Assembly (NCBI GenBank): GCA_014384025.1
Contig: JACNGQ010000219.1
Coordinates: forward strand, 1-51,541
Reading direction: 5' to 3'
From: Planctomycetota bacterium
GTDB taxonomy: Bacteria > Planctomycetota > Phycisphaerae > Sedimentisphaerales > Anaerobacaceae
Length of the DNA stretch: 51,541 bases
Below the pieces are notes generated by a model. That model saw nothing but the letters and a program-made list of their open reading frames with translations, searched no databases and was not told where the DNA came from. Below are positions 22,723-47,935 of the stretch, piece by piece; position 1 is the first letter of the stretch; each line of letters starts with the position of its first letter. The translations under genes were made by a program, and so were the position numbers.

Positions 22723-22766
22723 GCAGCAAATTCACAATTTGAAGGGTTAGGTTTTTATACCTGTTG

Positions 22767-22793: not shown

Positions 22794-22842
22794 GGCACGT
22801 GGCCAAAGTATGGTAATTTTGCTTTTTATAAGGAGGATTGTT

Positions 22843-25033: not shown

Positions 25034-25348
25034 TTACAGCCAGTCACCGGCCGGTATTTGATCCATCGCATGGCGCAGTACAGGATCAACATTCGTATAT
25101 ACCTTATTTGTCAGATCTGGTGAAGAATGCTCCAATAACTTCTGTGTGACAGCTGTGGATACGCCGTTCTGGGCAAGTACAGAGCCAAAGGTCTTGCGTA
25201 AATCATGAAATTTGAAATCATCCAAGCCAAGTTTCCGGCGTATCTGTTTCCATCTGTACCGGCTGAAATTATTATTAAATATGTTTTCTTGTTTAGCATC
25301 CAATCCGGAAACATATTTCTTCAGCTCAGTTGAATATAAGCATATATT
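25034..25348 (-). pseudogene. Tyrosine recombinase C-terminal fragment (copy 1)
   Basis: Only the last third of a phage-type integrase is present. The frame runs from just after a stop at 25351 through LKKYVSG and IFNNNFSRYRWKQIRRKLGL to the end at 25034, with TTG 25303 as the only plausible start. FHDLRKTF carries the HxxR box, LLEHSSPDLT the second His and NKVYTNVD the nucleophilic Tyr. The first catalytic Arg, the Lys and the whole N-terminal DNA-binding domain are missing, so it cannot recombine DNA alone. A nearly identical fragment lies at 40629-40895. Confidence 0.8.
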
Positions 25349-25535
25349 TTACAAAAGGTTATGTGATTAATAGAATATTTTTCGCCGTATACTTAATCCG
25401 ATAGAAGTAAAAAATTTCTGAGAAATGTTTAGATATTTGTAAAAAAATGACATTTATTCGGACTTGATATAGGCAAAACTTACATTTGTGGTGTCATTTT
25501 AGTGACAAGATGTCACTTGAAAATTGGGGGTGTTT
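25034..25535 (-). repeat. Dispersed element, copy 1: integrase tail plus conserved non-coding segment
   Basis: The integrase fragment and about 230 bases on its 5' side (25304-25535) recur together at 40629-41135. The distal non-coding part recurs alone at about 47743-47935. Shared landmarks are ACTTAATCCGAT (25392-25403), a GGACTTGATATAGG-type string, GTGGTGTCA and TGTCACTTGAAAAT. The segment contains AGTGACA-AGA-TGTCACT (25501-25517), a perfect 7-bp inverted repeat. All three copies point the same way. Confidence 0.8.
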
Positions 25536-25635
25536 TTCCGCTTCTGAAAGAGGTGAATATTCCTTCAGACTATCAATATGACTGCTTCCAAAATACTGAT
25601 ATTTCACCAAATATCCTGTCAGGTAGCTCGAATTT

Positions 25636-25722
25636 AAAAAAAGGCAAGAAGATAGAGGCAGATGCATAGTGTCTTATTGCAGGACATTATCTCATTTCGC
25701 CTTCTATCTTCTACCGCCTGTC
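25636..25722 (-). terminator. Long-stem terminator after the ECF/TPR operon
   Basis: On the minus strand, downstream of the TPR gene stop, GGTAGAAGATAGAAGGC pairs with GCCTCTATCTTCTTGCC around an inner arm and is followed by seven T residues (A-run at 25636-25642 on the plus strand). A degenerate copy without the T-run lies at 35378-35455. Confidence 0.7.
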
Positions 25723-25738
25723 TGCTAATCTTCAGATA

Positions 25739-26986
25739 CTACTTGACCTCAGCCTTGATTTTCTCCATACGTTTGCGTACGTTCTTAAGCCGGTACTGAT
25801 CCGGCTCACGTATACCTTCACATATATCAAGACATTTCTCATAAGCCTCCAGGGCCTTTTCGATTTGCCCTAATTCTTCATAAGCACGTCCAAGACAATA
25901 ATGAGCATCATCGGATCCCTCCAGATGGCTAAATTCGCTGATATGTTTCAGGAAAGTGTCCAACATCTTGTCGAATTGCCCGATCTCCGGATAACACATT
26001 CCCACCATGTATAACATCTCCGCGCCAACCCGGCCGTTGTCCAGAGAACCATACTGTTCATAGCCCTGTTGATAGAGTTTCAATGCTTCGGTGTATTTCT
26101 TCTCCACGAACAACTGTCCGGCACGGTTGTATAGGGCTCGGCTTTCCTCGATGGCTTTTTCGTCGACGATGTTATAATCCGCCGGCACCTTAAAGGCATC
26201 AGAGGGAACCTCCTGATTGTATGTAAATGCCTGTGCATTCACACAGGGGTGCCCCTTCAACAACATCGTCGCTGTTTGAATCAATTTACTCTCATCATCA
26301 ACGACAATGGAATATGATGTATCAGAGGGATAGCTGCAGGTCACAAGGATCTGCTTCTTACCGGTGCTTGGATCATATTGAACTACCTGCTTCCAGTCGT
26401 CACTAAACTGTCGCAGAACCCAGAACATCTTACCAGTCAGCCAGGGACTGAACTCTGCACTCTTGTACCAGATTTGCAGTTCGGCAAAGTCAGAACCATT
26501 TACGATGTTGACGGATTTTTCTTTAGGTCGACACTCATACGCTGTTTTCCCCTCGACTATGACGATCCGTTTATCACATTCAAATCGCATCTTGAGTTCC
26601 TCAGAGTCCTCGGCGGGAAATTGGACCCAAAAGTCAAAATCCAAAATCTCAGGATCGGAGTCAGAACCCCAGAAACACTCTCCCTTTACGTGCAGCGTCT
26701 CAAGTTTCTGAATCGCTTCTATTGTCTGTTCGACCGCCCAAACCTCATTAGTCCCATGCATCCAAATTCCCAGCGTTACAGTCAAAATGACTAAGGCGGC
26801 TACGCTTGTTTTTATAATCCGGCTATTCATGGCTATTCTCCATACATTTAAGTTATTAACATTTTGTTGGTTTTTTCGAAATAGTTCTAATGCAGTCTCA
26901 AGAACCTGGTCATCCCTTTCAGGACAGGTTTGAAGCTCGGGTCCTCTGAGATACTGTTCCAGTTGTTGCTTTTTTCTGGATATCAT
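25739..26986 (-). CDS. Membrane protein with C-terminal TPRs, partner of the ECF sigma gene
   Basis: A 415-residue protein encoded 3 bases after the stop of the ECF sigma gene, so the two are translationally linked. A short cytoplasmic part (residues 1-55), a single membrane helix (about 57-76, TSVAALVILTVTLGIWMHG), then an extracytoplasmic domain (about 80-285) resembling the LolA/outer-membrane-lipoprotein-sorting fold seen in planctomycete sigma partners, and TPR-like repeats (about 290-405: ALYNRAGQLFVEKKYTEALKLY, AHYCLGRAYEELGQIEKALEAY). Position and topology suggest it restrains or informs the sigma factor, in place of a classic anti-sigma; this is inference. The last 12 codons (ending RMEKIKAEVK) recur as isolated remnants at 29661 and 35461. 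Confidence 0.8.
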   Translation of the reverse strand: MISRKKQQLEQYLRGPELQTCPERDDQVLETALELFRKNQQNVNNLNVWRIAMNSRIIKTSVAALVILTVTLGIWMHGTNEVWAVEQTIEAIQKLETLHVKGECFWGSDSDPEILDFDFWVQFPAEDSEELKMRFECDKRIVIVEGKTAYECRPKEKSVNIVNGSDFAELQIWYKSAEFSPWLTGKMFWVLRQFSDDWKQVVQYDPSTGKKQILVTCSYPSDTSYSIVVDDESKLIQTATMLLKGHPCVNAQAFTYNQEVPSDAFKVPADYNIVDEKAIEESRALYNRAGQLFVEKKYTEALKLYQQGYEQYGSLDNGRVGAEMLYMVGMCYPEIGQFDKMLDTFLKHISEFSHLEGSDDAHYCLGRAYEELGQIEKALEAYEKCLDICEGIREPDQYRLKNVRKRMEKIKAEVK

Positions 26987-26989
26987 TTC

Positions 26990-27529
26990 TTAAACCTCAC
27001 CATTCAGCAAAATTCGTAATTTCTCTAAGCTGTACCGGTACCGGCTTTGTACTGTATTGATCGATAAACCTTGTAGCTTTGCAATCTGTTTAAACTTCAG
27101 ATTGCCCCGTAAGTGCAAGGTAATGACTATACGCTGCTCATCTGGTAACTCATACAAAACCTGATGCACATGCCTTAATTCATCATTAAGCAGGACCCAT
27201 TGATCAGGCCTGTGTTCAGGTGAGCACACTTCTTGACACTCAGACAGCCTTTTGGTTGGTTTGGCGCTTTAGGCTTTTTTTAGGTTGTGCACTCGATTAA
27301 TCAGGCTTCTTACTAAATAGCCCTTGAGATTACCGTCCAAACGCAAGCGCGGAGCAGATTCCGCCAGGGATACAAAGATATCCTGTACAACATCTTCTAC
27401 TTGCTCACTGTTATTCACCAGGGCATAGGCAATTTTGAGCAGGTAATTCTTATACTTAACATAGGTGCGTACTAATACCTGTTCCTGTCCGTTCTTCAGT
27501 TTCCAAATAAGCAGCATATCCTCTATCAC
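26990..27529 (-). pseudogene. ECF RNA polymerase sigma factor split by an in-frame TAA
   Basis: Read from ATG 27529, region 2 is complete (LLIWKLKNGQEQVLVRTYVK, VEDVVQDIFVSLAESAPRL, LKGYLVRSLINRVHNLKKA). TAA follows at 27271-27269. The same frame goes on without a shift (SAKPTKRLSECQEV) into a full region 4 (LYELPDEQRIVITLHLRGNL, FKQIAKLQGLSINTVQSRYR) and ends at 26990. The stop falls in the flexible linker between the sigma-2 and sigma-4 domains. As one polypeptide it would be 179 codons, a normal ECF length. A GTG at 27229 could start region 4 alone. I read it as a nonsense mutant; read-through or two separately made halves are less likely. Confidence 0.75.
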
Positions 27530-27599
27530 AACGATCCTTTGAAAAGAATGATCATTCCTCTTAGTTATTACAATTCAAATGAATTTTTAGTCTAAACTG

Positions 27600-27905
27600 T
27601 TCAAAAAATTCCATTAAGGAAATCCGGTGATGCCGGCAGCAAAATACGTCGAGGTCTGATTGCACCTGAACGTATCTTCCGTGCCGGCCTCTACATCGGC
27701 AGCATTCTCACCGAAGTATATTCATGTGAGACAGCCATAAGTCCGGCCTTCCAGCTCATACTGGCCCACGTATCTTCATGTATGCCTCGATCAGCCGGAG
27801 CCCGCCTGGAGAGGCGTTTGGCTGCTCATCAAGTAATCTTATCTCATTCTGCGATACCGCCCTGCCGTAGATTCGGACAAAGTAACGATTAATTTTCCGG
27901 TACTG
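27600..27905 (-). pseudogene. Decayed LamG/Fn3-repeat protein fragment
   Basis: No long frame exists here, but minus-strand translations stitched across frameshifts give FVRIYGRAVSQNEIRLLDE (the usual end of a LamG domain). This is followed by APADRGIHEDTWASMSWKAG, AVSHE, then YFGENAADVEAGTEDTF and NQTSTYFAAGITGFP. That order matches the repeat domain in the genes at 19843 and 22843 (HDVYFGDN...GNQT..FVVGFPGFP). It is therefore a relic of a fourth member of that family, with at least two frameshifts and a stop. The rest of the spacer to 28049 shows nothing else. Confidence 0.7.
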
Positions 27906-28049
27906 TTTGTCCAGATCCTGCCGCTCTTATTCATCATAGTCCGCACTTCATTCGGTCCTTTCTGACAATTTGGCAAAAACAGGACAGTCCTTCTGGTTCT
28001 ATATAGTCCTCTCAATTACTGATCCAGCTCAGACTCCAAAAGCGCCCTA

Positions 28050-29633
28050 TTAGTTCAGATCAAAATTCTTATCAGTATCATTGTCAACTTTCTTGATTCT
28101 GTAGTTTTGCCAGGTGAGCTTGGGACCACGAAGGTCAAGACACTTTCCGGTGGGAGTGAAGAACAGGCCCGGCAGATACTCATCAAGTCGGCCACCATCA
28201 TCATCGTGATATACGTGGCTGTCGACATAAAGGTACCCATCTTTCTCGAAAACCTTTACATGCAGATTCCTGTTCGTTAAACCAAGGGCCAGTGCGATCC
28301 TCAGAGAGGTGCTAAACTTCCAGCCGCTCATAAAATATTTATAGGTACCGATGTACTTTTTCCATTCTGGTTTGAATGGTGTGAAGGTGTTGGGATCAGG
28401 TGGCTGCCAGGCCTGATATTCGCCGGATGGTATCTCGAATGATTCGTTTTTCTCAATGAGATTCTCACGCATCAGATCATAAAAGATATCACAACAACCA
28501 GAAGCCCATCCATATCGATCATAATTAAACAGAAACACACCACCTATATCATATTCAGGAAGCCAATGGATACCTGCCCCAAAGCCAAACCCTCCGCCAC
28601 CATGACCTAATACGTACTGTTTGAAATTTGGGAAACTCTGGATTCCCAATCCATATTCCTTGTTACGTATCGATGGGGGAAACATGCTCGTAATGAGGCT
28701 TTCATCAAGAACTGTTTGGCCGGCCACCTTGCCTCCATTGAGAAAAAACTGCACGAATTTGGCTAATCCTTTAGCTCCAGCATACACACTGCCGGCTCCA
28801 CCATAAGGTATATCCATCAACATGGGCACTTGCTTGACATAGGGTATATGGCCCACGGCCTTGTTGGGATGGTTCCTGATGAACTCTGGATCTACCGAAC
28901 AGTTGGTCATATTCAAGGGAGTAAAAACCTTGTCCTCTAAGTATTTGGCAAACGGTTGGCCTGATTGGACCTGCAATATATACGCCACCAGATCATACCC
29001 CAAGCCGGAATAGCTCCATCTTTCACCGACCTTGTGCCTGAGCCATGTATCGCAGACGCTCAGAACATGTTCTTCGAGCGAACCACAAGATGGATCCCTG
29101 CCATTGCCGACAGGGGCTTCAAACGCAATACCTGACGTGTGAGACAACAAGTGACGCAGGGTTATCTTCTTCTCCGGATCCTCTTCGAATCGGCTATTGA
29201 CCGTGAACTGTGGCAAATACTCGATGATAGGAACGTCCAGTTCAACCAGTCCATCTTGAACCGCATCCATCACCGCCGTGGCCGTGAAGGTCTTGGATAT
29301 AGAGCAGATTGCAAATATAGTGTCGGTTGTAACAGGTGTCTTTCGGTTATAATCGGTATAGCCAAATCCGACTGCCCACAGGATGCCGTCACGATCGACC
29401 AATGCAAACGATAGGCCAGGTACCTTGTCCTCGGCCATTTTCTTAGGGATGAGTTGGCGGTATTTTTCAAATACACTACACACACCCTGACTTAAGCCAG
29501 GCCTTATGTATTCATCCTGTAATTTCGGACTGATGGTGTTACAGCCCGAGCCAAACAAGACCAACAGAATAGCGAAAACAACGATTAATTGTGCAGTACA
29601 CTTGTTCCAGATATTACAGCTTTTAGTTGTCAC
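28050..29633 (-). CDS. Class C beta-lactamase-related serine hydrolase (copy A), membrane-anchored
   Basis: A 527-residue protein with a hydrophobic N-terminus (about 14-31) ending in GSGC, a weak lipobox. The beta-lactamase/DD-peptidase domain (about 55-390) has the Ser111-x-x-Lys114 motif (SISK), the second motif as YSGLGYDL (Tyr208-Ser-Gly rather than the usual Tyr-x-Asn) and a late GHGGGG. A C-terminal domain of about 120 residues starts near FKPEWKKYIGTYKY and is shared with the paralogue at 32723. Family members hydrolyse esters, peptides or D-amino-acid bonds; the substrate here is unknown. It lies downstream of a remnant of the TPR-gene tail and is separated from the methyltransferase gene by 230 bases. 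Confidence 0.88.
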   Translation of the reverse strand: MTTKSCNIWNKCTAQLIVVFAILLVLFGSGCNTISPKLQDEYIRPGLSQGVCSVFEKYRQLIPKKMAEDKVPGLSFALVDRDGILWAVGFGYTDYNRKTPVTTDTIFAICSISKTFTATAVMDAVQDGLVELDVPIIEYLPQFTVNSRFEEDPEKKITLRHLLSHTSGIAFEAPVGNGRDPSCGSLEEHVLSVCDTWLRHKVGERWSYSGLGYDLVAYILQVQSGQPFAKYLEDKVFTPLNMTNCSVDPEFIRNHPNKAVGHIPYVKQVPMLMDIPYGGAGSVYAGAKGLAKFVQFFLNGGKVAGQTVLDESLITSMFPPSIRNKEYGLGIQSFPNFKQYVLGHGGGGFGFGAGIHWLPEYDIGGVFLFNYDRYGWASGCCDIFYDLMRENLIEKNESFEIPSGEYQAWQPPDPNTFTPFKPEWKKYIGTYKYFMSGWKFSTSLRIALALGLTNRNLHVKVFEKDGYLYVDSHVYHDDDGGRLDEYLPGLFFTPTGKCLDLRGPKLTWQNYRIKKVDNDTDKNFDLN

Positions 29634-29660
29634 GGCTCATACTCCATTCGGTTTTAATGT

Positions 29661-29720
29661 TAAGATACTACTTGACTTCAGCCTTAATTTTCTCAATACG
29701 TTCGCATGCATTCTTACGGG
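29661..29720 (-). repeat. Remnant of the ECF-partner TPR gene tail (partial copy)
   Basis: The minus-strand translation RIEKIKAEVK followed by TAG copies the last codons of the TPR gene at 25739. It includes the downstream flank GTATCTTAACATT-like sequence and sits 28 bases upstream of serine hydrolase A. No gene body precedes it. The same tail recurs at 35461-35520. Confidence 0.7.
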
Positions 29721-29865
29721 GGTACTGAATCGATCTCCTACCTGGGCCAGCAGTGATTCAATTGTGTCATCATACAAGCATATATTCACGAGGCCGCTAT
29801 CCCTGAAGAATGTTGGTGACACCTAAATTAAAGGCCTGCCTCCTTGTTCCTTTACTTTTTACACA

Positions 29866-30708
29866 CTACAACGTTACCCTTTTGTTTTTGAAACGGACCC
29901 TAGTGATGACTGGAGGAGCATAGTGGTTCAAGATTGGCGTTGCGAATATTAAGGGAAACAGCCATCGCCCCACACCGTGCGGGAATCGCCACCACCGAAG
30001 CTCTGTTACCTCATCGAGCGTCGGCACCCAGGCTCGTAGGGTAAGAGCAATTTGGTGACGGTTGATACCCCAAGGCATCTTCGGTGTTGTGTATTGTGCG
30101 GTCTTCTTCCAGCCGCGTTTGACTGTCTTGTGCGATAACCACCTCGGGATCGTGTCAAACATAAACCACGCACCTGGAAACCGCTCCGCAAGGTTTTGGA
30201 ACAGCATACGCACCTCCTCCTCAGGCAGATACATCAACAGTCCCTGGGCAGTAATATAGACAGGCCTTTCTTCCGGGACCTCGTCGAACCACGCACGGTT
30301 AAGGGCCGACAATGCCACGTGCCGGTGTTTGTCATCCGGGGCGATGAATCGCTCCCGAATTGCTATCGCCTCCGGCAGATCAACGCTCAGCCACAGTGCT
30401 TCATCACCAGCCACGCGAAAACGTTGTGTTTCCAAACCCACTCCGAGGTTAACGATAACTCCGTTCGGATGATGACCGAGAAACTTACGTAGTTCGGCGT
30501 CAAACATTGCAGCTCTCACTGCGTTGGTCGGCTCACCGGGACCAAAGGTCTCTTCGAAGTCGTAGTCCAGTATCTGGTAAATTCGTACGGCCTCGGGATC
30601 ACGCAGAATGCCGTCATCGCGACTTGCTTCCGATACGCGATTGTGCAGCGTCCACAGCATCGTCTCCGGTACCCCAGACAGGTTTGGTCTCAATTTACGA
30701 TTTAACAT
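29866..30708 (-). CDS. LCM-type class I SAM-dependent methyltransferase
   Basis: A 280-residue protein of the leucine carboxyl methyltransferase-like (PF04072-type) family, many of whose bacterial members are annotated as O-methyltransferases. The SAM site is VIVNLGVGLETQRFRV (about 84-99), followed by VDLPEAIAIRERF (acidic residue for the ribose) and GLLMYLPEEEV, the conserved block after strand 4. No signal peptide, so it is cytoplasmic. The substrate is unknown. It lies about 320 bases beyond the S41 peptidase stop, with no obvious pathway partner. Confidence 0.85.
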   Translation of the reverse strand: MLNRKLRPNLSGVPETMLWTLHNRVSEASRDDGILRDPEAVRIYQILDYDFEETFGPGEPTNAVRAAMFDAELRKFLGHHPNGVIVNLGVGLETQRFRVAGDEALWLSVDLPEAIAIRERFIAPDDKHRHVALSALNRAWFDEVPEERPVYITAQGLLMYLPEEEVRMLFQNLAERFPGAWFMFDTIPRWLSHKTVKRGWKKTAQYTTPKMPWGINRHQIALTLRAWVPTLDEVTELRWWRFPHGVGRWLFPLIFATPILNHYAPPVITRVRFKNKRVTL

Positions 30709-31025
30709 GATGTCCTACTATATACAGCCAACGTCGGACTCAACAACCAGCGTCCCCGAGTCTATGGCATTGCCTCGTTCGATGATGTAATCTTACTCTG
30801 AACTAAGAAAAACCATAAACGTCAATTTCCCAAGCGTTGTCCTTTGCAGCCATTTGAAAAACCAGACCGTCCTTGATGTCTAACGGCTCTGCCCAGTGGT
30901 AGTACTCCGGGTACGAATGTTCCTTGTTTACGTCTGAAAAGAGTATGTTCGAAATCTACTGTTACTTAACAGTTGTCATTTTCTCATTGTAGCAATTTCA
31001 TCTCCCATAAACACAATATCTTTAT
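30709..31025. other. Intergenic spacer, no gene seen
   Basis: 317 bases between the methyltransferase start and the S41 peptidase stop. It must hold the upstream region of the methyltransferase gene, but I see no clear promoter, repeat or RNA. Confidence 0.4.
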
Positions 31026-32720
31026 TCACAATTCATCGATAACCGTTCTTATCCATTCATCTTTTAGCAAGTCTTCCTTGGTAATGCTCCTGGGCGGCCA
31101 GATGATAGGAAGCTCCACATCTGGTGGTGTGCCGAATAGCTCATTGATGCTCCCGTCCGGATTGATCACCAAATCGGTTTCCACCCTGAATGCCATGCCG
31201 CTGGCAGGCAGCATAATAATGGGTGGCGCAAGGTAACCTGCTGCACCGCCGCCAGTGTTCTGGCCTACGAGTGTGGCAAGTCCGATCCGTTTGACCGCGT
31301 TGAGGTAGTCATCTGCCGCTGACAAACAGCCTCCGTTAATGAGGATATAGAGATCGCCTTTGAAGTTGTAGCGATTGCGAGGCTCTATTTTTCGGGTGAC
31401 TTCGTAGAAGGTCCATTGATTCGGATCAAGCTCCTCCGGGGGCTTCGTTTCTGTTATACGTATAACATGGGCTTTCTGTGTTGACACCTCGTCCCGCAGG
31501 GAATCCAGAACGGATTCATCCGTATCAGCCAGGAATTTCTTCTTTACTCCAACAACCTGGCTATACGTCGCGGGCTCGTCCAGGAAGGGACTGATGAGCG
31601 CATCGTAGCCATACTGGGGGAGTCCGCCACCGTTATTTCTGAAGTCGATGATAAGTTTGCTATATTTTCCTTGAGAACGTTCAAGGAAGGTTTTGATCTT
31701 GTTCCGGTCTTTTTTGATGAATCCCCTAAACAAGGCGCTAAGCTTTCCCGGCATGCAGCTCTTGACCCGAATGTAGCCAACATCTTTCGTCAGTTCCAGG
31801 CACGTGCAATTGGCTTTGGGCTCTGTAGTGTGAACTTTTTCTGCCTTCGGGGCGGGAAAGTCTTTTACCTTGGGTACGAAGGCTCGAAGCACACTACCAT
31901 CGGGCAGGCTAAAATCGACCTGCCACCCCTTGTGTGTAGAACCTTCATCGATGATCAGCAGATACTGTTTGGTCCAATCCTTGGCGTAAGCATCATAGCG
32001 CAAGGAAGTGTTCTCATTTATGAAATTCAGATAGGCCGAACAAGTCATTCCATTGACTTTGAGTATCTCGGAGCCCCGGTGTACAGTCGTTCCGTTATAT
32101 TGCCAGTCGTCATCTGTGAGGTATTTACCTTCTCTGTGAACAATATGGAAGGGAGGATGGGCACGAGTAGAGATTTTGTCCGAGAGCCTGGCCCAATACG
32201 GCGCCCGATCAAACTGCCCAGGAGTGATGACCCACTTAATGAATCCGAAGAATGAGGCGAGCTTGAACGATTTTAACGACTCTTCGCCGATCAGGTAGAA
32301 GTGGCAGGTAGCGCTGATCACTTTAAAGTAACCGTTTACTACCTGGAAGAATTCCTCATTATTTTTTGCATTTTCTGCAAATTCCAGATACCGCGGCAAC
32401 AAAGCTTCATAGCTCGGAGCGTTCTTATATTTCTCGTTCAATTCGACAAAAGGATGATAATCTCTCGCCCAATCTGCCAGAAACTGGATGTCTCGCATTC
32501 TGTCCTCCGGCGTTAGTTTCGGTGTAGTCACACACCCAACCAGAGCCAGGATTATGAAGAACAAGGCAACCCACAGCCATATCGGGCCAAACCTTCTCAC
32601 CTTTTGTTTATACGATCGATACGTTTCTGCAAATCTCATAATCATCCCCATTCTTCCTGCGCTGACGGCTCTGATCAAATCGATCTCAAACCAACTCCGA
32701 TGTTCTTTTATAGTTGTCAT
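31026..32720 (-). CDS. S41-family peptidase, lipoprotein-like
   Basis: A 564-residue exported protein. ATG 32720 lies 2 bases after the stop of the serine hydrolase gene, suggesting translational coupling; ATGs at residues 25 and 28 after an AGGAAG are alternatives. A membrane segment (about 47-62, LWVALFFIILALVG) ends in LVGC, a lipobox. The C-terminal half has the S41 (tail-specific protease/tricorn core) signature: LIIDFRNNGGGLPQYGYDAL, then GDLYILINGGCLSAADDYL with the catalytic Ser, VGQNTGGG and the closing GTPPDVELP. The N-terminal domain is helical. S41 enzymes cut C-terminal tails of exported proteins; some members with similar layout may process small peptides. Substrate unknown. Confidence 0.85.
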   Translation of the reverse strand: MTTIKEHRSWFEIDLIRAVSAGRMGMIMRFAETYRSYKQKVRRFGPIWLWVALFFIILALVGCVTTPKLTPEDRMRDIQFLADWARDYHPFVELNEKYKNAPSYEALLPRYLEFAENAKNNEEFFQVVNGYFKVISATCHFYLIGEESLKSFKLASFFGFIKWVITPGQFDRAPYWARLSDKISTRAHPPFHIVHREGKYLTDDDWQYNGTTVHRGSEILKVNGMTCSAYLNFINENTSLRYDAYAKDWTKQYLLIIDEGSTHKGWQVDFSLPDGSVLRAFVPKVKDFPAPKAEKVHTTEPKANCTCLELTKDVGYIRVKSCMPGKLSALFRGFIKKDRNKIKTFLERSQGKYSKLIIDFRNNGGGLPQYGYDALISPFLDEPATYSQVVGVKKKFLADTDESVLDSLRDEVSTQKAHVIRITETKPPEELDPNQWTFYEVTRKIEPRNRYNFKGDLYILINGGCLSAADDYLNAVKRIGLATLVGQNTGGGAAGYLAPPIIMLPASGMAFRVETDLVINPDGSINELFGTPPDVELPIIWPPRSITKEDLLKDEWIRTVIDEL

Positions 32721-32722
32721 CT

Positions 32723-34336: not shown

Positions 34337-34382
34337 AGATATTACTCCTTATCTTACATTACCATATTTACATGTAACAATG

Positions 34383-34661
34383 CTACCATGTTAAAGTATT
34401 CCACCCATATCCGGAGATCAAAGACCTGGGCAAGTCGTCTTCAGAAAGCCTTTCCAGAAGTGCTTTCTTGGCCTCTTCAGCGCCCGTCGCAGGCTCAAGT
34501 GCTTTCTTGATGATACCCCACATCAGACAACACTGCTCGAATTTCTAGCCGCAGGCATCACATATCTCTGTATGCCTATTGAACTCAGTTAACTGCACAT
34601 CGGCTATAGTGCCCTGTTTGTATTGCTCAATATAATCTCTGCATACTTCACAAGTGATCAT
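34383..34661 (-). pseudogene. Zinc-finger anti-sigma-like gene with an in-frame TAG
   Basis: A short gene starting at ATG 34661. The first 38 codons read MITCEVCRDYIEQ...FNRHTEICDACG: Cys4-xx-Cys7 and His30-xxx-Cys34-xx-Cys37, the zf-HC2/ZAS pattern of anti-sigma factors. TAG follows at 34547-34545, after which the same frame continues for 53 codons (KFEQCCLMWGIIKKALEP, ALLERLSEDDLPRS) to a stop at 34383. No sigma gene is adjacent. The H-x3-C-x2-C arrangement is strong; the rest is too short to assign. Probably a relic of a sigma/anti-sigma pair. Confidence 0.55.
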
Positions 34662-34705
34662 GATCTCATCTTTCTACAAACACTCGAATGAGGGTTGAAT
34701 TTCAG

Positions 34706-35347: not shown

Positions 35348-35377
35348 TTCCCTTCAAGGCGGACCGAATGCCGGAAG

Positions 35378-35520
35378 GCAAGAAGATAGAGGGAAATGCA
35401 TAGTGTCTTATTGCAGGACATTATCTCATTTCGCCTTTATCTTCTACCTCCTGTTCTAATGTTAAGACACTACTTGACCTCAGCCTTAATTTTCTCAATA
35501 CGTTCGCGTGCATTCTTATT
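35378..35520 (-). repeat. Second copy of the TPR-gene tail plus degenerate terminator hairpin
   Basis: 35461-35520 on the minus strand reads KNARERIEKIKAEVK then TAG, matching the end of the TPR gene at 25739. The following 35378-35455 matches the long-stem terminator behind that gene (GGCAAGAAGATAGAGG, TAGTGTCTTATTGCAGGACA, TTCGCCTTTATCTTCTACC), but lacks its T-run. It sits between the CPBP and ICMT-like genes with no gene body attached. Confidence 0.8.
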
Positions 35521-35540
35521 CTCTCATATTTCCCTTTTCT

Positions 35541-36755: not shown

Positions 36756-36801
36756 AAATTAACAGAAGTTTTCTCTGCTTTTTTAGGTAATTTGCATAGG
36801 A

Positions 36802-40322: not shown

Positions 40323-40628
40323 GAACGAGGTTGTGAATTCTGCCATTCAAGGTTGAAGCTTCTAACAAATGAGGTAGACTTGGGGCGGCCTGAGACGCAT
40401 AAGCTCTACGACTTGCACTTTTTAATACCCTCGTAAAAGCGATTGAAGTACTATTTGTAGTGGTTTATATTTTAAAGTCTATGTGACATTTGTACTATGT
40501 ATAATATGGAATGTTTTTTGATGTATTTATACAATGAGCAAGATGTGGGTGGATCAGATAAGGTCTACGCCTTTTTGTCCCACTGATACCTTTTGACCTT
40601 ACTACTATTACTACTATAATGTATAAGG
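40323..40628. other. Intergenic spacer, nothing recognised
   Basis: About 306 AT-rich bases between the kinase stop and integrase fragment 2. A short ACTACTATT-type run occurs near 40600. No terminator hairpin with a T-run is obvious. Confidence 0.35.
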
Positions 40629-40895
40629 TCACAGCCAATCACCAGCCGGTATTTGATTTACTGCATGCCGCAAAACAGGATCAACATTCGTATATACTTT
40701 GTTTGTCAGATCTGGAGAAGAGTGCTCTAATAACTTCTGTGTTACAGTTGTAGAAACACCATTCTGAGCAAGTACAGAACCAAAGGTCTTGCGTAAATCA
40801 TGAAATTTGAAATCATCCAAGCCAAGTTTCCGGCGTATCTGTTTCCATCTGTACCGGCTGAAATTATTATTAAATATGTTTTTTTTAGCATCCAA
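40629..40895 (-). pseudogene. Tyrosine recombinase C-terminal fragment (copy 2)
   Basis: An 88-codon fragment almost identical in protein to copy 1 (five differences, one of them a one-codon deletion). It keeps the HxxR box (FHDLRKTF), the His of LLEHSSPDLT and the Tyr of KVYTNVD. The frame upstream of TTG 40895 hits a stop within about ten codons, earlier than in copy 1, so no larger protein can be made. About 110 bases at its N-terminal side are identical to copy 1, while the C-terminal half differs mostly at silent positions. Confidence 0.8.
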
Positions 40896-41135
40896 TCCGG
40901 AAACATATTTCTTAAGCTAAGTTGAATATAAGCATATATTTTACAAAAGGTTATGTGATTAATAGGATATTTTTCGCCGTATACTTAATCCGATTAAAAT
41001 TTAAAAATATCTTTATTTTCATCAAAAACTGATATTATTTCGGACTCGACATAGGAAAATTTAATAGTTGTGGTGTCAAAATGGTAACAAGATGTCACTT
41101 GAAAATGTGGGTATTATTTAGTAGCAGATAGAAGT
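40629..41135 (-). repeat. Dispersed element, copy 2
   Basis: The same unit as 25034-25535 in the same orientation: integrase tail, then TTCGCCGTATACTTAATCC, CGGACTCGACATAGG, TGTGGTGTCA and ACAAGATGTCACTTGAAAAT. The inverted repeat seen in copy 1 is decayed on one arm here (GGTAACA-AGA-TGTCACT). Confidence 0.8.
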
Positions 41136-41616
41136 GACTTATGGAATTTTTTCTTTCCGAAAGCATAGTGCAGGATCATTCATATTTCTTACGAAAAGTG
41201 AAGGTTTAACCTTTTTTGATGAATAAGCTCTAGTTGCTGAGACTAAGAAGGAACGTTGAAAACAGGACCTTCGGCCTGCATGGCCGATGCTTAAGATCAG
41301 TTAAGTGCCAAATAACTAGACATTTATAGAAATTATTCAATTCATATGTACTAAGTATACGTACTTAACTCCTAGTAAATGACTGAGCATCGGACTAACA
41401 ATCCGATGCTCTAAAATCTCAACTTGTTGTATTGACAGAGGTTGTAAATATCTAGAAAAGGCGATTACAAACCGTCTTACAAAAAATTCTCATAAACAGC
41501 TGAGAAGACTTAAAGAATATAGATCAAATGTCTTTGAAGTCCTTGTCCGAAGTATCTAACATCGACATAGCTACTTATGTTCCTGTCTATCATGTAATGT
41601 GAAATCAAGTTCTTTA
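41136..41616. other. Intergenic spacer with a 10-bp perfect hairpin
   Basis: GAGCATCGGA (41385-41394), a 7-base loop and TCCGATGCTC (41402-41411) form a perfect hairpin. On the minus strand the loop reads TTGTTAG, like a tRNA-Asn anticodon loop, but the acceptor, D and T arms are missing. Just before it TAAGTA-TACG-TACTTA (about 41352-41367) is a second small inverted repeat. No gene is seen. Confidence 0.45.
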
Positions 41617-44046
41617 TTATTGAATCAGCCGGATATCATCGATGTACACCGCTCCGGTTCCGGCCGTACCCGGAACACCCTTTGTGCCGACACCGATGGT
41701 GATCGTATTGACATTGGTAAGATCCGTTCCGAACGCCGCCAGGTCGATCACCCACTCCTGCCAGATTGGCGTCTGCGTCGCGGCCGGATCGTCATGGTAT
41801 TCCGGATTGCCGTCGACAGCAACAAAGACCCTATCCGGTTCACTACCGGGAGCGCCAACAAGCCACAGGCTGAGTTTAGTAACTCCGTGGGCTGTCCAGT
41901 CGCGCGGGAATTCGAGCGTCATAGTCGCCTCCGAGAACTTGCCGGTGTTGTCAAAACGCAACTTCATCGACTGGTTTCCGCCGTGAACGGTCGTCTTCTC
42001 GGCGTAGGGTGGCACATCATTAGATATAAGGGCTCCGTTATTCTGAGTCCCGAAACCATCGAACCACTTGTCCCAAATCCTGTTGCCGGGCTCACCGTCA
42101 GGAGGATCGATATCGTCGTAACCCTCGATATCGTCAACGATAAGTAGATCACCCGTATCGAAGGTCCAGAGATTGCCCTTCCACGGGCTGTCGGGATTGA
42201 GATCGTTAACCTCATCCACGCGCCAGTAGTAGACTGTGTTGAAGTCAAGCGAGCCGATATCAAGGCTCTCCTCGCCAAGCGGCTTGCTGACCTGGAACTC
42301 GGGCGAAGTCTTGGTGGCGTTAGCCACGGCATCGGCATTGGTGCCAAAATAAACATCATGCGAAGAGGCGGCATCTCCGGCCTTCCACAAGAGAGCAGAC
42401 GCCAGATTAACACCAATGATCCCATCAGCCGGACTCGGCTGTCTGGCCAGCATAGGCGGCTGCAGCGGGCCGGCGGGAATGATCTGCTCGGCCATTGTTG
42501 GCGTCGACCAGGACAACTTCTGTAGGGCATCGCGGTCCCAGTCGGCGTACTCCAGGCGCAGCGTATGTATGCCCGCTTTCAGGGGCGTCGGCTGCGAGGG
42601 ATACTTCGCGGGGACGTGGGACGCCCATACGTCAATGATCTTATTTCCATCGATCCACAGCCGCGTGCCACCTTCGCTGTTGACATCGAACGTGTACGTG
42701 TCATCGACCAAAGTCAACAGGTCCGCCGTCCACCGGGCCGACCAGCCATCGGCCGGCAATGGTGCGCCGGGACCTTCGGCACCCCAGTCAAAGTTGACCT
42801 CCGGGTCGATCCGCGTAAAGGCCGGTGTTCCGCTCAGACTTACATTGTTGAAGTACTCGCCCTTGAGGCCGCCCTCACCGGTGGTAACCGTAAAGCTCCA
42901 GACTTCCCCCTTGTGCTCGAGTGGGGCCTCATCAAGCTCATCGACCCGCCAGTAATAGGTCTTGCCGGCCTCGAGAGTGTCGAGGGCGAATGTCGTGCCC
43001 ATTTGTGAGGTTGGTCCGGTGGCATTGCTGACTTCGTCGAAATTGTCGCCGAAATACACATAGTGCAACCTCGCACCCCAGCCAGCGTTCCAACTAAGAT
43101 CCGCACCCGGATCTACGAATCGGGCGCCGTCGGGCGGATTGGGCTGCCATGCGATCTTGGGCGGAACAGTAAAACTCCAGACATCACCCACCCAGGGACT
43201 ATCCGGATTGGATGGATTGATCTCATCGATCCTCAGGTAATATGTTGTGGCGGGAATTAGACCTTCCGGGATGGGAAATTCGGGCAATCCGACAATTATA
43301 TTCGCCGCACTCTGATTGCCTACGAATGCGGCATCGGTACCGGCAAAAACATCGTCACGATTATCGCTGATATATACATCGTGAGAGAGTGCTTCTTCTC
43401 CGGGCGTCCAGATAATGTCCGCCCACGTTTCAGCATGTACGGACCCATCGGCCGGGAAGGGATCGGCAGCCTTAAAGACTGGGGTCAGCAGCTCTATCTC
43501 GGAAATCTGCATGCTGTTGGCCGCTTCCGGATCGCGAACGGCCGGGAACATGAGCTGGTAGTGCTTGTACTCCACGTTGTTGGCGAATGTGATCGGCGTT
43601 TCGTTCTTCGTATGCCGCGGCCAGGGCGTCTCGCCGGCGAAGTCGTCAACGGTACCTGAAGCAATCAGCGTGTAAGGCCCGCTGATACTGTCGTTCGAGC
43701 CGGACAGTTCCCACTCAACGGGATCGCGCTCCTCACGACGGTTCGCCGAGGTTAAACTGATCCCGGTCACTACTGTCGGACCGACAGATGGCGTCACCCG
43801 GATACCCGTGGGCTCGATCTCCCCCTTGAAGTGCAGATACTTCGTCAGTACCTGATCATCAATGATATACTGCGGCAATTCGGTGGCTGGCCAGCCAAAG
43901 TTAGTATCGCCCGGTATCCTAAGGCCGTCGTTTGGAACGCCAATGATGGCGTCCCCCGGCTTCGTAATGTCGCGCCCCGCCTGCAACGTTCCACTCAACG
44001 CCAGCATCGATGCGAGCACAATGAGAATTGAAGCGTTTCTTAACAT
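41617..44046 (-). CDS. Large secreted protein with discoidin-like, Fn3-like and PA14 domains
   Basis: An 809-residue exported protein (signal MLRNASILIVLASMLALSG, cleaved after LQA). The order is a discoidin-like beta-sandwich (about 28-190: VTGISLTSANRREERDPVEW, QISEIELL), two HDVYxxDN...TYYxRIDE repeats (about 195-395), a PA14 domain (about 400-535: LKGEYFNNVSLSGTP, FDVNSEGGTRLWIDGNKIID, AGIHTLRLEYADWD), a third repeat (about 540-635) and the C-terminal module (DDIEGYDDIDPPDGEPGNRI to GAVYIDDIRLIQ) shared with the genes at 19843 and 22843. The coding sequence looks clearly richer in G+C than its surroundings and than those two relatives. PA14 and discoidin domains commonly bind sugars; no catalytic site is visible. 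Its orientation is opposite to the sulfatase gene. Confidence 0.87.
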   Translation of the reverse strand: MLRNASILIVLASMLALSGTLQAGRDITKPGDAIIGVPNDGLRIPGDTNFGWPATELPQYIIDDQVLTKYLHFKGEIEPTGIRVTPSVGPTVVTGISLTSANRREERDPVEWELSGSNDSISGPYTLIASGTVDDFAGETPWPRHTKNETPITFANNVEYKHYQLMFPAVRDPEAANSMQISEIELLTPVFKAADPFPADGSVHAETWADIIWTPGEEALSHDVYISDNRDDVFAGTDAAFVGNQSAANIIVGLPEFPIPEGLIPATTYYLRIDEINPSNPDSPWVGDVWSFTVPPKIAWQPNPPDGARFVDPGADLSWNAGWGARLHYVYFGDNFDEVSNATGPTSQMGTTFALDTLEAGKTYYWRVDELDEAPLEHKGEVWSFTVTTGEGGLKGEYFNNVSLSGTPAFTRIDPEVNFDWGAEGPGAPLPADGWSARWTADLLTLVDDTYTFDVNSEGGTRLWIDGNKIIDVWASHVPAKYPSQPTPLKAGIHTLRLEYADWDRDALQKLSWSTPTMAEQIIPAGPLQPPMLARQPSPADGIIGVNLASALLWKAGDAASSHDVYFGTNADAVANATKTSPEFQVSKPLGEESLDIGSLDFNTVYYWRVDEVNDLNPDSPWKGNLWTFDTGDLLIVDDIEGYDDIDPPDGEPGNRIWDKWFDGFGTQNNGALISNDVPPYAEKTTVHGGNQSMKLRFDNTGKFSEATMTLEFPRDWTAHGVTKLSLWLVGAPGSEPDRVFVAVDGNPEYHDDPAATQTPIWQEWVIDLAAFGTDLTNVNTITIGVGTKGVPGTAGTGAVYIDDIRLIQ

Positions 44047-44501
44047 AACTCGTCTCCTTATAAAGATATATTATTGTGAATTTTGCTTAAACCAAGCGCC
44101 AAAGCAGCCTGCAGGTATTTCGGGCCTTATGACAGTCCAGTAGCCCCTCACGACGACTTTTCACCTGCGCGTTGTTGCTACCATCCTTCCAGAAGAAGAG
44201 GAAAATTACGGTGAATCTTCATATCGTCAAGCCTGCAAAACCTACGGAATCCACCTTCAACCAAATCTCACATATTGACTAAGATGCAATGTACCAGATT
44301 TGTGGCATACGCGTCAAGGGAAATCCTGTAAAAGCCGGGATTTGCCATTTGACTTCATAATCGGGGCTCCCAAATGATTCTGGTAATGAAACATATCAAT
44401 TGCTATAGTAATATGATTATGTGGAATCCAAGAATATACAACTACTCTGAAATATCGTTGCATTCACGCTTATCCAAGATAGATATGAGAAAGGCACATT
44501 G
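44047..44501. other. Divergent intergenic region, nothing recognised
   Basis: 455 bases between the divergent repeat-protein and sulfatase genes. Both promoters should lie here. On the minus strand an AGGAGACG precedes the repeat-protein start; GAGAAAGG (44487-44494) precedes the sulfatase. No convincing -35/-10 pair could be chosen. Confidence 0.4.
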
Positions 44502-46091
44502 GTGAAAAAGGAATTACAGAGCAGAAGAGAGTTTTTAAAAGCGACAGCGATGTCCATAGCGGTTACGGGTTTATCCGGATGCTCGGAAGATTTGCAGGAG
44601 TTTGGGAACAAAAGTAGTAAGCCTAACCTGCTGTTTATCATGACGGACCAACAGCGCTTTGATGCATTGAGTTATGCTGGCAATAACATCCTGAATACGC
44701 CGAATATGGACCGGCTTGCACGAGAAGGCGCCTGGTTCGAAAACACCCATACACAGTGCGCTGTTTGCGTTCCTGCCAGGGCTTCAATGCTTACAGGTCA
44801 CACGGTGGCAAACACCAGGGTCATTTCAAACAAACAGGCCTATGTCCCGGAGGACACCGGCGTGATGCCGATGAAAACCTACGACGAAATTCTATCGGAA
44901 AATAAGTACGAATGCGAGTATTATGGCAAGTGGCATACCCCGGTTTTCCGTGCGAGGGTCTATAACAATCCGGTGACGGCTGCGGGTATCCACAAAACCG
45001 AGTTGGGCCCCGGAAAAAAAGGCGCTTATCTCAAATACCTCGATCCGTTGTATCCCGACAGGGAGCTTAAAGAGGGGGAACTGAAAGATACGCTGACAGA
45101 GAGGCCATATGTACCGGATCCGATCGACCGGCGTTTGGACCTGAAGAACAAAGGGCTGGAATCAGATATCAAAGTTGGACAATCGGACATTCACGGGGTT
45201 ACAACCATTCCAGCTGCGTATCACATTTCAGCGTTTGAAGCAAGTAAAACGATTCAAGCATTGGAAAGACTAAAGGATAAACCCTTCAGCATTACATGTT
45301 CGTTTCATCACCCGCACCCTCCTTATCTGGCTGCGGAAAAATATACTCATATGTATCCCTCGGAAAAAATGGTTCCTCCTGTTAGTATTGATGATGACAT
45401 GGTGAACTCGCCTTATCTGAAGGTTAAAAGAAGAACCGATGAAAAATATTCCGATCCGAAAATGATTCAGCATTTCATCTCGGAATATTACGCTTTGGTC
45501 AAAGAAGTTGACGACTGGGTTGGACAGATTTTAGACAAACTCGATGAATTTGGATTAACAGACAATACCATGGTTGTTTTTACCAGTGACCATGGTGAAA
45601 TGCTGGGAAGCCACGGGATGAGGGGCAAATTCTGTTTCTATGAGGAATCGTCTCATGTCCCTATGATGATTCGGTTTCCCGGAAGAATTAAGCCGGGAAC
45701 AAAAGTGAAGGCTCCGGTTTCAAACATGGATTTGTTCGCAACTATCCTGGATTACCTGGATATGCCTGCTCACCCCTCTGATGGCAGCAGTCTTCGCGGG
45801 CTGATTGAGGGTGTCGTTAATGAAGATGATACGTATGTGGTTACGGAATGGCTTAGCGACCTGCAAGACAAGCCTTCTCACATGGTATTAAAAGGTGGCT
45901 GGAAGTTAATGCGTCCAGATCCCTCAGCTAAAAAAGTAAAAAAGGCCTTATACAATCTCAATGACGATCCGCATGAGGTAAAGAATTTACTGGCAGACGG
46001 CGCTGATTCAAAAGCATATGCCGTCAAGATGACCGAACTGGAAAACTGCTTCCAGGCCTGGATAACGCGGACCAGCGCTAACAAACCGTAA
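44502..46091 (+). CDS. Tat-exported lipoprotein sulfatase
   Basis: Starts at GTG 44502, 7 bases after GAGAAAGG; a TTG one codon upstream is the alternative. The N-terminus KKELQSRREFLKATAMS carries a twin-arginine motif (SRREFLK) and ends in LSGC, a lipobox, so it is folded inside, exported by Tat and lipid-anchored. The sulfatase core starts KPNLLFIMTDQQRFDAL. The formylglycine site is CVPARASMLTG with the Cys at about residue 89, which needs a maturase not present in this window. VVFTSDHGEMLGSHG supplies the metal ligands near the C-terminus. About 529 residues, the usual size of an S1-type carbohydrate sulfatase. Next to a glycosidase pseudogene, it probably desulfates a polysaccharide. 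Confidence 0.92.
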   Translation: MKKELQSRREFLKATAMSIAVTGLSGCSEDLQEFGNKSSKPNLLFIMTDQQRFDALSYAGNNILNTPNMDRLAREGAWFENTHTQCAVCVPARASMLTGHTVANTRVISNKQAYVPEDTGVMPMKTYDEILSENKYECEYYGKWHTPVFRARVYNNPVTAAGIHKTELGPGKKGAYLKYLDPLYPDRELKEGELKDTLTERPYVPDPIDRRLDLKNKGLESDIKVGQSDIHGVTTIPAAYHISAFEASKTIQALERLKDKPFSITCSFHHPHPPYLAAEKYTHMYPSEKMVPPVSIDDDMVNSPYLKVKRRTDEKYSDPKMIQHFISEYYALVKEVDDWVGQILDKLDEFGLTDNTMVVFTSDHGEMLGSHGMRGKFCFYEESSHVPMMIRFPGRIKPGTKVKAPVSNMDLFATILDYLDMPAHPSDGSSLRGLIEGVVNEDDTYVVTEWLSDLQDKPSHMVLKGGWKLMRPDPSAKKVKKALYNLNDDPHEVKNLLADGADSKAYAVKMTELENCFQAWITRTSANKP

Positions 46092-46137
46092 TGTACAGTC
46101 AAAATATAAATTGATATGAATTAAACAAAGAAGCGAA

Positions 46138-47466
46138 ATGAAAATTTCGAACAGTGCCCTGATCCTGACGCTTATCTGCTTCACCCTCTTGCAGACAGCA
46201 TTCGCGGAACTGAAGACCGATGTGCTTAAGCCCTATAACGGTCCCTCCGTCCTCGGTGTAGACCCGAGCACGCTGGCAGGTAAGGTAATGACCGGCTATC
46301 AGGGCTGGTTCAACTGCGAAGGCGACGGAGCCAATCTTGGCTGGACACACTGGGCCAGGGACCGCAGTAAAACGTTTGGGCCGGGGAACGTCACCGTTGA
46401 CCTTTGGCCTGATGTGTCTGAATACGATGACGATGAACTCTACGTCACCGCGTTCACCTATGAAGACGGAATCCCGGCCAAAACCTTTAGCTCGCACAAC
46501 CGTAAAACCGTGATCCGCCACTTTAAATGGATGGCTGACTACGGGATCGATGGTGCCTTCGTGCAGCGTTTTACCCATAGCCTGCATAACGAGACCATGC
46601 GCTACCATAAGGACAAGGTGTTATCAAGTGCGCGTGAAGGGGCCAACCGCTACGGGCGAACCTACACAGTCATGTATGACCTTACCGGCATACCGGATGA
46701 AAACATCATTGAGGTGTTCGATGACTGGCGTATGCTGCGAGACAAAATGCACATCACCGATGATTCCGCCTTTCAGCATCATAAGGGAAAGCCGTTAGTG
46801 GCCATCTGGGGGGTCGGTTTCAACAATAAGATCAAGCGGCGTGCCGGTCTTGAGGAGTGCAAAGAACTGATTAAAAAGTTCAAAGCAGACGAATGCAGCG
46901 TGATGCTGGGGATTGCAACCGGATGGCGCATGCAAGACAGGGATGCATTGCAGCATCCGGAGCTCCATAAAGTGCTGCTCATGGCCGATGTGCTGAGTCC
47001 GTGGAGTGTCGGGCGTTTTGGCGATCTGCCGGGCGTTCAGCGCCACGCAGAGAAATACTAGGAACAGTATGTTGTCTGGGCGCGCAAGCGTGATATCGAC
47101 TATATGCCGGTTGTGTTTCCGGGCTTTAGCTGGCATAACCTGAATGGCGCCAAACTCGGCTCGATCCCGCGGCTCGATGGACGGTTCTTGTGGTCTCAAG
47201 TCATAGCCAATAAAAAGGCTGGCGCTGATATGCTCTATATCGCCATGTTCGACGAAGTCGATGAAGGGACCGCCATCTTCAAGTGTACAAACAACCCGCC
47301 CACCAGCGATGGGTCAAAATTCCTGACGCTGGACGGCCTTCCGAGCGATTTTTATCTTCGCCTTGCCGGAGAGGCTGGTAAACTGTTTCGCGGCGAGATT
47401 CCTCTGAGCACTGAGGTGCCTGCAGCAATACTGAGCCAACTAAACACATCTTTTTATAAGGACTGA
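46138..47466 (+). pseudogene. GH71/GH99-like glycoside hydrolase interrupted by TAG
   Basis: A secreted protein (signal KISNSALILTLICFTLLQTAFA) whose frame is open from 46138 to TAG at 47059-47061 and then continues unshifted to 47466, 442 codons in all. The two parts fit as one enzyme: VMTGYQGWFNCEGDG, GIDGAFVQRFTHSL, RTYTVMYDLTG and ADVLSPWSVGRF before the stop; YMPVVFPGFSWHNL and DMLYIAMFDEVDEGTAIF after it. These blocks are typical of GH71/GH99-like (endo-mannanase-type) proteins. The stop follows HAEKY where relatives of this kind often have Trp, so TGG to TAG is likely. The lost part includes the end of the barrel and probable active-site residues. The gene is 46 bases from the sulfatase stop, so it was part of its operon. 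Confidence 0.75.
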
Positions 47467-47474
47467 ATTATGTA

Positions 47475-47621
47475 CATACCCTCCTCAAAATTGCCTTGAT
47501 TGCCAACACCATTAGCATTTCCGCGGCCGAGGTAACTCCCGACCAATTGGAGTTAAGCCGACAGGCTGGCCGACGTATGATCTTTGATTGCTCGCAGGAT
47601 ATTCTCCTTGCAAGGTTGTGA
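47475..47621 (+). pseudogene. Possible truncated start of a secreted-protein gene
   Basis: Directly after the GH71/GH99-like gene a frame without a good start reads LLKIALIANTISISAAEVTP then DQLELSRQAGRRMIFDCSQD and stops. It resembles the signal peptide and first mature residues of an exported enzyme. An ATG at 47470 is one frame off. Only suggestive. Confidence 0.3.
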
Positions 47622-47742
47622 ACCGAAAATCTTGCCGAATCTCTCGGAAATAGAATGAGGATCCCTTAAACGCTTCGGCCTGACATGTTTGTTCGATCTT
47701 CTTTCAAATTTGACGATAAATCGATTGATGCTTACAAATTAC

Positions 47743-47935
47743 ATTATTGATATATTTCCTCGTCACCGTTTACTTAATCCGATATCACACAAAAAATTCT
47801 GAAAAATATTCGGATTTTTGCAAATAATTGATGTTTTTTAGGACTCGACATGGGCAAAATCAACATTCGTGGTGTCATTTTGGAATCATCATGTCACCTG
47901 GAAATTTAGGTGTTTTTTAACTCCTGATAGATGTA
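47743..47935 (-). repeat. Dispersed element, copy 3 (non-coding part only)
   Basis: TTTACTTAATCCGAT, AAAAAATTCTGAAAAAT, GGACTCGACATGGGC, CGTGGTGTCATTTTGG and ATGTCACCTGGAAATTT follow one another as in copies 1 and 2, in the same orientation. No integrase tail is attached on either side. The inverted repeat of copy 1 is degenerate here. The rest of the spacer to 48206 shows no gene. Confidence 0.75.

Follow-up and report, generated by a model that had tools for sequence, protein, structure and literature searches.

The ssrA-specific genomic islands of Dehalococcoides are characterized by the serine recombinase DsiB, a single transfer-messenger RNA (tmRNA) attB, and direct repeats that all lie within 100 kb downstream (PMC3146451). 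Here we analyzed a 51,541-nucleotide stretch (the window) of a Planctomycetota metagenome-assembled genome (MAG; contig JACNGQ010000219.1 of GCA_014384025.1), in which directly repeated copies of a non-coding site, two of them next to the tail of a tyrosine integrase gene, bound gene blocks of 15.6 and 6.8 kb. The copies are probably attachment (att) sites of a lambda-type tyrosine integrase, a kind that binds both arm and core sequences, and the blocks are probably tandem, site-specifically integrated units. As here, the Dehalococcoides islands lie in tandem between attachment-site repeats, carry entire operons (catabolic ones in their case) and have an integrase at one end in some cases and none in others, the latter being thought cis-mobilisable; they contain no transfer genes of their own (PMC3146451), and none were seen among the proteins examined here. 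Unlike those islands, the units described here go with a tyrosine integrase, show no shared tRNA or tmRNA target and occupy dozens of sites on many contigs.

The att sites of lambda (PMC4880445) and of KplE1 intS (PMC2951348) are further relatives, in which, as is proposed here, a heterobivalent-type integrase is paired with core and arm sites spread over ~200–240 bp; the att region also overlaps the integrase upstream region, as in KplE1-type elements, where the integrase promoter lies inside attL (PMC2951348). Unlike lambda-type elements, the present system shows no phage genes among the proteins examined, forms arrays of dozens of units and leaves most units without an integrase. Integrons and clusters of attC sites lacking integron integrases (CALINs) resemble the system proposed here in that one integrase serves many co-oriented sites and the cassettes have no integrase of their own (PMC11389934; attC structure, PMC2727003), as well as in having sites parasitised by group II introns, with a parallel in attC-targeting IS1111-type elements (PMC7923331, PMC11187229). 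Unlike integrons, it has an integrase other than IntI, sites that are not folded attC and cassettes of 1–16 kb with room for entire operons. Tycheposons resemble the units here in being small islands of environmental bacteria that bear an integrase and carry metabolic genes. From tycheposons and satellites the units differ in that neither packaging genes nor a common tRNA target is seen and in their long tandem arrays of integrase-free units. Tycheposons are mentioned together with other tyrosine-recombinase islands and satellites in PMC11389934.

The three copies in the window (25034–25541, 40629–41121 and 47749–47918) share one orientation, as the initial annotation had it, and are members of about 60 dispersed sites in the source genome, which comprises 6.69 Mb in 448 contigs. 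In this genome, blastn of the copies gave 41 and 40 matches, an iterated profile search gave 58 matches in 41 contigs, and the 12-mer TACTTAATCCGA occurs 37 times versus 0 for its reversed control. All five same-genus genomes tested carry the sites (5–23 blastn matches each), and other genera gave weak matches only. The initial annotation would have taken the copies for chance duplications if they were absent elsewhere or never coincided with block boundaries; they recur in the genome and its relatives, and boundaries do fall at them, as detailed below. A full site consists, in order, of a left module (..ATGATTGATACATTTC..) that terminates in the core, a ~100-bp segment of two diverged types, a motif M' (consensus GTGWCAWWWTGGWGWCA) and a conserved tail. 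The core is a 15-bp dyad, CGNAT-ACTTA-ATCCG, in the window genus. The distance from core to M' is 101–102 bp at 37 of 56 sites and 91–92 bp at 12, two classes that differ by one helical turn. Array sites carry the core centre of their own genome, ACTTA in the window genus and GGATTCAATA in MohnsGC08_bin187, a genome of another genus in which core-100 bp-M' sites are also found away from the integrase. A structured non-coding RNA, for which covariance modelling had been suggested, was rejected on the basis of a consensus fold of -1.8 kcal/mol over 225 columns (7 pairs, in the tail only; computed with RNA energy parameters as a proxy for DNA single-strand folding) and the lack of any Rfam match at the window copies.

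Two variants of these sequences were observed. At left-only sites (such as L072:165, L096:164, L097:2875, L065:14392; L061:15038, L195:8, L213:13619), other sequence families, e.g., ..CGTAAAAAAACCTTCGTTTTTT.. and ..GTGAAATCCATGTAATC.., follow the same core in place of M', as if other kinds of unit used the same attachment core. Six contigs of MohnsGC08_bin187 (C46, C47, C80, C85, C122 and C135) bear a second subfamily of the motif, GTGTCAAAAAGGTGTCA. In most cases a further GTGTCATTTTTCG-like stretch comes after it, and no recognisable core lies upstream; it is possibly another element family.

The initial annotation treated the integrase C-terminus and the non-coding segment as one element, a view that the comparison of sites does not support. 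Copies 1 and 2 are 91.9% identical over the integrase tail and the integrase-side segment (P side) up to the core, beyond which they diverge: to the right of this 12-bp core, similarity among all three copies is only 68–72%, no more than the genome-wide background between sites (median 68). Most sites lack an integrase remnant altogether. Integrase tail and non-coding part are distinct entities that meet at the core, where the right end of the left unit (integrase tail) joins the left end of the right unit (non-coding part). Copy 3, previously described as the distal 190 bases of the repeat, is indeed a repeat copy, but it includes the core and a left module as well. The pieces in copies 1 and 2 do correspond to the catalytic C-terminus, namely residues 234–331 of a 331-residue enzyme with H275, R278, H301 and Y311 kept; R193 and K218 are missing, and copy 2 carries an additional in-frame TAG, so both are dead remnants.

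Full-length integrase genes are present in three copies elsewhere in the source genome (C316, C413 and C137), and the remnants elsewhere in the genome end at or beside the stop codon. The enzyme is a phage-type tyrosine recombinase: it matches PF00589 (E 9e-24), and R193, K218, H275, R278, H301 and Y311 (R-K-H-R-H-Y) are invariant in 11 homologues. Against the integron-integrase model TIGR02249 it scores 41.8 bits versus a cut-off of 265. Structure prediction places a beta-beta-beta-alpha fold at residues 4–51 (predicted local distance difference test ~82–85 to residue 40, lower beyond), ahead of the core-binding and catalytic domains; this predicted N-terminus appears to resemble an arm-binding domain, and structural matches of the model include full-length lambda Int (1z1g_A; model residues 3–309, Z 13.2, root-mean-square deviation 14 across moving domains). 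A pattern scan of the genomes of 84,980 species yielded 65 integrase loci, nearly all in Planctomycetota MAGs, with three labelled Desulfobacterales or Deltaproteobacteria; in viral contigs there was one match, at 27%. All 32 testable loci have the same motif as M' ahead of the integrase, here termed M (the GTGWCA motif). It shows no more than 3 mismatches in any of them and is exact in 14 (the best match in shuffled sequence averages 6.4 mismatches), and its distance to the integrase start is 71–76 bp in 29 of the 32. The core dyad stands 171–174 bp upstream of the integrase in 10 loci from several genera. Across genera M is constant, and the core centre is lineage-specific (ACTTA, GTTCA, TATAT, TCAAT) and common to integrase locus and arrays within a genus. 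A tRNA target was considered and rejected, as tRNA-Arg is near the integrase in 2 of 35 loci scanned, with opposite orientations relative to it; tRNA-Arg(CCT) lies ~130–150 bp from two divergent integrases (L237 1724–1797; L242 7991–8066).

Adjacent sites on one contig are co-oriented in 44 of 45 pairs, the sole opposite pair being L163 90–261 (-) and 8355–8421 (+). Open reading frames (ORFs) between sites run with the site direction in 27 cases and against it in 32; the genes thus show no matching orientation, and polarity is a property of the sites. Units bounded on both sides (n = 44) measure 1.1–16.4 kb with a median of 3.8 kb and often hold several genes. One unit on C356 looks like a three-gene efflux system, judging from gene lengths and N-termini only, and in another a gene for an extracytoplasmic function (ECF) sigma factor is accompanied by a large partner. 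Where homology between genomes breaks off, it tends to do so at a site: 31 of 72 interior ends of between-genome homologous segments lie within 100 bp of one versus 6.4 expected, about five times the expectation, and the maximum in 2000 random draws was 17. Moreover, 99 site pairs share the left unit, 83 the right unit and 3 both, counts that are inflated by paralogous repeat-protein genes, and two neighbouring units on G001:C252 sit on separate contigs (C243, C356) with other neighbours in the window genome. These observations, together with full-length integrases bearing the same core and motif and the two intact elements described below, lend good support to the suggestion in the initial annotation that the copies may be footprints of site-specific integration through which gene blocks are gained or lost. 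They also speak to the idea of a dispersed repeat that is not mobile and merely flanks genes, whether a miniature inverted-repeat transposable element (MITE) or an intergenic sequence with a regulatory or terminator-like role. In favour of this, the tail resembles a weak hairpin followed by T-runs; nevertheless, the 44:1 polarity independent of gene orientation, the homology breaks, the lack of terminal inverted repeats in the window copies and the same architecture at the integrase locus make it highly improbable.

MohnsGC08_bin187 (G062) contains two complete units, E1 (C77:1700–16098; 14,398 bp) and E2 (C54, from ~33,600 down to 13,254; 20,341 bp). In both, a core is followed at about 100 bp by M' and then by the cargo; next come the integrase gene, which reads inward, and M, which lies about 100 bp from the second core. 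The end cores are in direct repeat (ATTCAATATACT; CCGGATTCAATAT). The cargo of E1 is a fucose-utilisation cluster comprising alpha-L-fucosidase, a rhaM-type mutarotase, a sugar ATP-binding cassette transporter, a dehydrogenase and an aldo/keto reductase; that of E2 is a cobalamin operon with CobU, CobT, CobS, CobD/CobQ, CbiB, CobB/CbiA, CbiD, CbiE, CbiF and CbiH. No transfer genes were seen in E1, where 10 cargo proteins were compared with Pfam and the matched ones were all metabolic or transport proteins, or in E2, where 10 of ~20 ORFs compared with NCBIfam were all cobalamin genes and the rest were judged by eye, the origin of transfer (oriT) not being sought. Phage structural, packaging or replication genes were likewise absent among the E1 and E2 proteins examined. 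Searching other genera for partner ends by exact core returned just the integrase-linked copies, and a scripted search of 10-kb flanks gave a single weak match. The two intact elements also bear on the explanation that the arrays are fossils, in which the integrase made the sites long ago and units are now reshuffled by homologous recombination, introns and insertion sequences only. The majority of integrase copies are indeed remnants, and many sites are broken up by introns or by a short palindromic insert. Set against this are, besides E1 and E2, the three integrases of the source genome that are full-length and keep every catalytic residue, and a unit start (L196/L199) that is 97% identical at two places of one genome with different left neighbours; we consider fossil arrays unlikely, and the integrases may be active at present.

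The position of the junction was examined in units shared between sites. Left-unit identity reaches ..CATCCG and drops at NNTACTTAATCC (L091/L168/L205; L093/L188; window copies 1/2), which places the left-unit junction at the core; among right units, L164/L197 keep the core-arm part (88% and 93%) next to different left units. A different reading is integron-like: the GTGWCA motif M, and not TACTTAATCCGA, would be the strand-exchange site, serving as attI by the integrase and attC-like at cassette ends, with the left module as an accessory. This accords with M being the most conserved part across genera and present both at the integrase and in arrays, with some shared right units starting at M' and not the core, and with the targeting of M by group II introns, which parallels that of attC by group IIC-attC introns (PMC7923331). 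However, in three independent pairs including copies 1/2, left-unit homology ends at TACTTAATCC, ~100 bp before M'; the core dyad centre behaves like an overlap region, varying by lineage and matching at the integrase locus and in the arrays, whereas M is invariant; the 91/101-bp phasing of M' suits arm sites; and the direct repeats at the ends of E1 and E2 are the cores. Crossover solely at M was rejected as the main model, given that left-unit homology stops at the core, and is retained as a rival that appears quite improbable.

We propose a putative model for the movement of units by the lambda-type integrase. A complete unit runs from a core through ~100 bp, M' and the tail to the cargo operon or operons, and then through an inward-reading integrase, M and ~100 bp to a second core. 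The integrase, bound at M and M' as well, would carry out core-by-core recombination; recombination of the two cores of a unit would release a circle in which attP is rebuilt as M, 100 bp, core, 100 bp and M'. Such a circle could reinsert at any other core having the same central bases, and insertion at an existing site would yield a same-direction tandem array. Many units of the window genus have lost their integrase; their mobilisation in trans would fall to the three full-length copies encoded at other places of the genome.

Several points weigh against this model. No clean empty site, such as the genome comparison proposed in the initial annotation might reveal, was found in any genome searched: among 77 relatives, the search for E2 returned only the two flanks, apart from each other, and of two occupied/empty candidates among ~100 site contigs, one was a member of a paralogous repeat-protein family and the other lies within a single intron-split locus. 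No excisionase or recombination directionality factor gene was identified. In bin49, a genome assembled as a single contig, the core of the integrase is present only once, which leaves that element without a recognisable partner end. In right units L196/L199, L196/L206 and L073/L076/L082 the type of core-to-M' segment is exchanged while the tail is conserved, which indicates that some exchange occurs at M', not at the core; a possible cause is recombination between introns located in M'. Finally, all array data come from fragmented metagenome assemblies, and copies 1, 2 and C205 share ~100 identical bases, so that misassembly at one of their joints is possible.

In operation, the system comes closest to tandem integrative islands such as those of Dehalococcoides, combined with an att site of the lambda type. 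It combines the R-K-H-R-H-Y catalytic domain with an inverted-repeat core that has a shared central overlap and is duplicated at both ends, M ~100 bp to the left and M' to the right of that core; Int presumably binds M. As in tandem accretion of the cis-mobilisable element (CIME) type, same-direction units share att sites, and some are without an integrase. It is integron-like in logic and fails the integron's defining tests, i.e., the integrase score, attC folding and small single-gene cassettes; a MITE does not fit for want of an inverted repeat at the ends of the window copies. The kind is thus known, and its array-forming operon-cassette form appears to be undescribed in the open-access literature searched, a novelty that is provisional with subscription papers and bioRxiv outside the search. 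A broader proposal, to which we give slightly less than even weight, is that Planctomycetota possess an integron analogue in which a lambda-type integrase captures and shuffles whole-operon cassettes among dozens of att sites per genome, with entire pathways (those for cobalamin synthesis and fucose use, and sets of sulfatases) moving as single units within and between species and most cassettes lacking their own integrase. Blocks of one to several genes appear to be swapped in and out among sediment Planctomycetota, somewhat like the single genes of integrons. In marine-sediment Planctomycetota, sulfatases, glycosidases and regulators come in large, variable sets, and a site-specific system that divides the genome into operon-sized units with recognisable seams would, if true, explain how such sets are assembled. 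The core-100 bp-M' signature offers a simple means to cut such genomes into mobile units, and the system would present a case intermediate between integrative elements and integrons, with one integrase, many sites, multi-gene cassettes and site-targeting introns.

The window itself divides at its three cores. Left of 25390 lies the end of a unit whose left end is outside the window. At site 1, the dead 3' remnant of the integrase gene (25034–25348, -; residues ~234–331; 92% by tblastn against the full-length copy on C316) forms the right end of that unit, with a reading frame that is open but truncated; the upstream M motif was lost together with the 5' part of the integrase. It is followed by the P-side segment from integrase to core (25349–25385, +), which matches the motif-to-core segment at intact integrase loci, and by the core dyad CGTAT-ACTTA-ATCCG (25386–25400, +; TACTTAATCCGA at 25390–25401), the proposed crossover site. 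The putative arm-like motif M' (GTGTCATTTTAGTGACA; 25491–25507, +) lies 101 bp from the core and leads into the conserved tail (25508–25551, +; end ..CTGAAAGA; right-module profile match 25482–25551). Unit B, the 15.6-kb block (25390–40981, +), is bounded by cores 1 and 2 and has a dead integrase at its right end (40629–40931, -). Pfam assigns to its cargo a tetratricopeptide repeat (TPR) protein, two beta-lactamase-fold serine hydrolases (the second, at 32723–34336, named from sequence), two methyltransferases, an S41 peptidase, a CAAX protease, an ECF sigma factor and a Ser/Thr kinase. The tail of the TPR-protein gene is repeated three times in the unit (25641–25787, 29642–29716 and 35375–35518), the first and third sharing 63 bp at 97% identity, which suggests an internal duplication.

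Site 2 has the core CGTAT-ACTTA-ATCCG (40978–40992, +), M' (GTGTCAAAATGGTAACA; 41073–41089, +) at a core distance of 91 bp and its tail at 41090–41131 (+; right-module profile match 41064–41131). Unit C, the 6.8-kb block (40982–47770, +), lies between cores 2 and 3, has no integrase and encodes a PA14-domain protein, a sulfatase-like protein (44499–46091) and a protein with no Pfam match (46138–47061). Its right end is the left module of site 3 (47741–47784, +; left-module profile match E 9e-8), which contains the core dyad CGTTT-ACTTA-ATCCG (47767–47781, +); M' (GTGTCATTTTGGAATCA; 47872–47888, +) follows at a core distance of 101 bp. The next unit begins at 47771, with its tail at 47889–47931 (+; right-module profile match 47862–47931) and its right end outside the window.

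Group II introns (Rfam D1D4-2, D1D4-6), several of them short and ORF-less, occupy one fixed position in M' (..GGTGA|), for instance at 1732–2347 and 9787–10342 of L080 (C333) and at the ends of L069, L077, L085, L074, L063 and L157; in two genomes they also occur in the integrase-proximal M. A fragment of another type (D1D4-4) is found at the right end of the window (51413–51541, -), and intron-like sequence lies directly left of TACTTAATCCGA on C5 and C356 (L081 726–865; L064 10323–10353). In different genera, the short palindromic insert (CTGACATATGTCAGGAAGG) interrupts or adjoins the core (L074:8354(-), L203:11622(-), L236:91, L241:13284(-), L321:1062) and is perhaps the end or scar of a core-targeting insertion sequence. 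These introns and inserts recall the situation in integrons, whose attC sites are targets of introns and of IS1111-type elements (PMC7923331, PMC11187229).

Elsewhere in the window, the 3' end of a 16S rRNA gene occupies the contig start (1–180), and Rfam calls no 23S in the next 51 kb, which reflects either unlinked rRNA genes or a contig-edge effect. Secreted repeat proteins that form a large paralogous family (~700 residues; N-terminus like MxKKLIYLVSFVLVL) are encoded at 19843–24897 and on many site contigs (L069, L082, L086, L087, L074, L084, L206). The family often ends beside a site and shows ~66–80% DNA identity across units.

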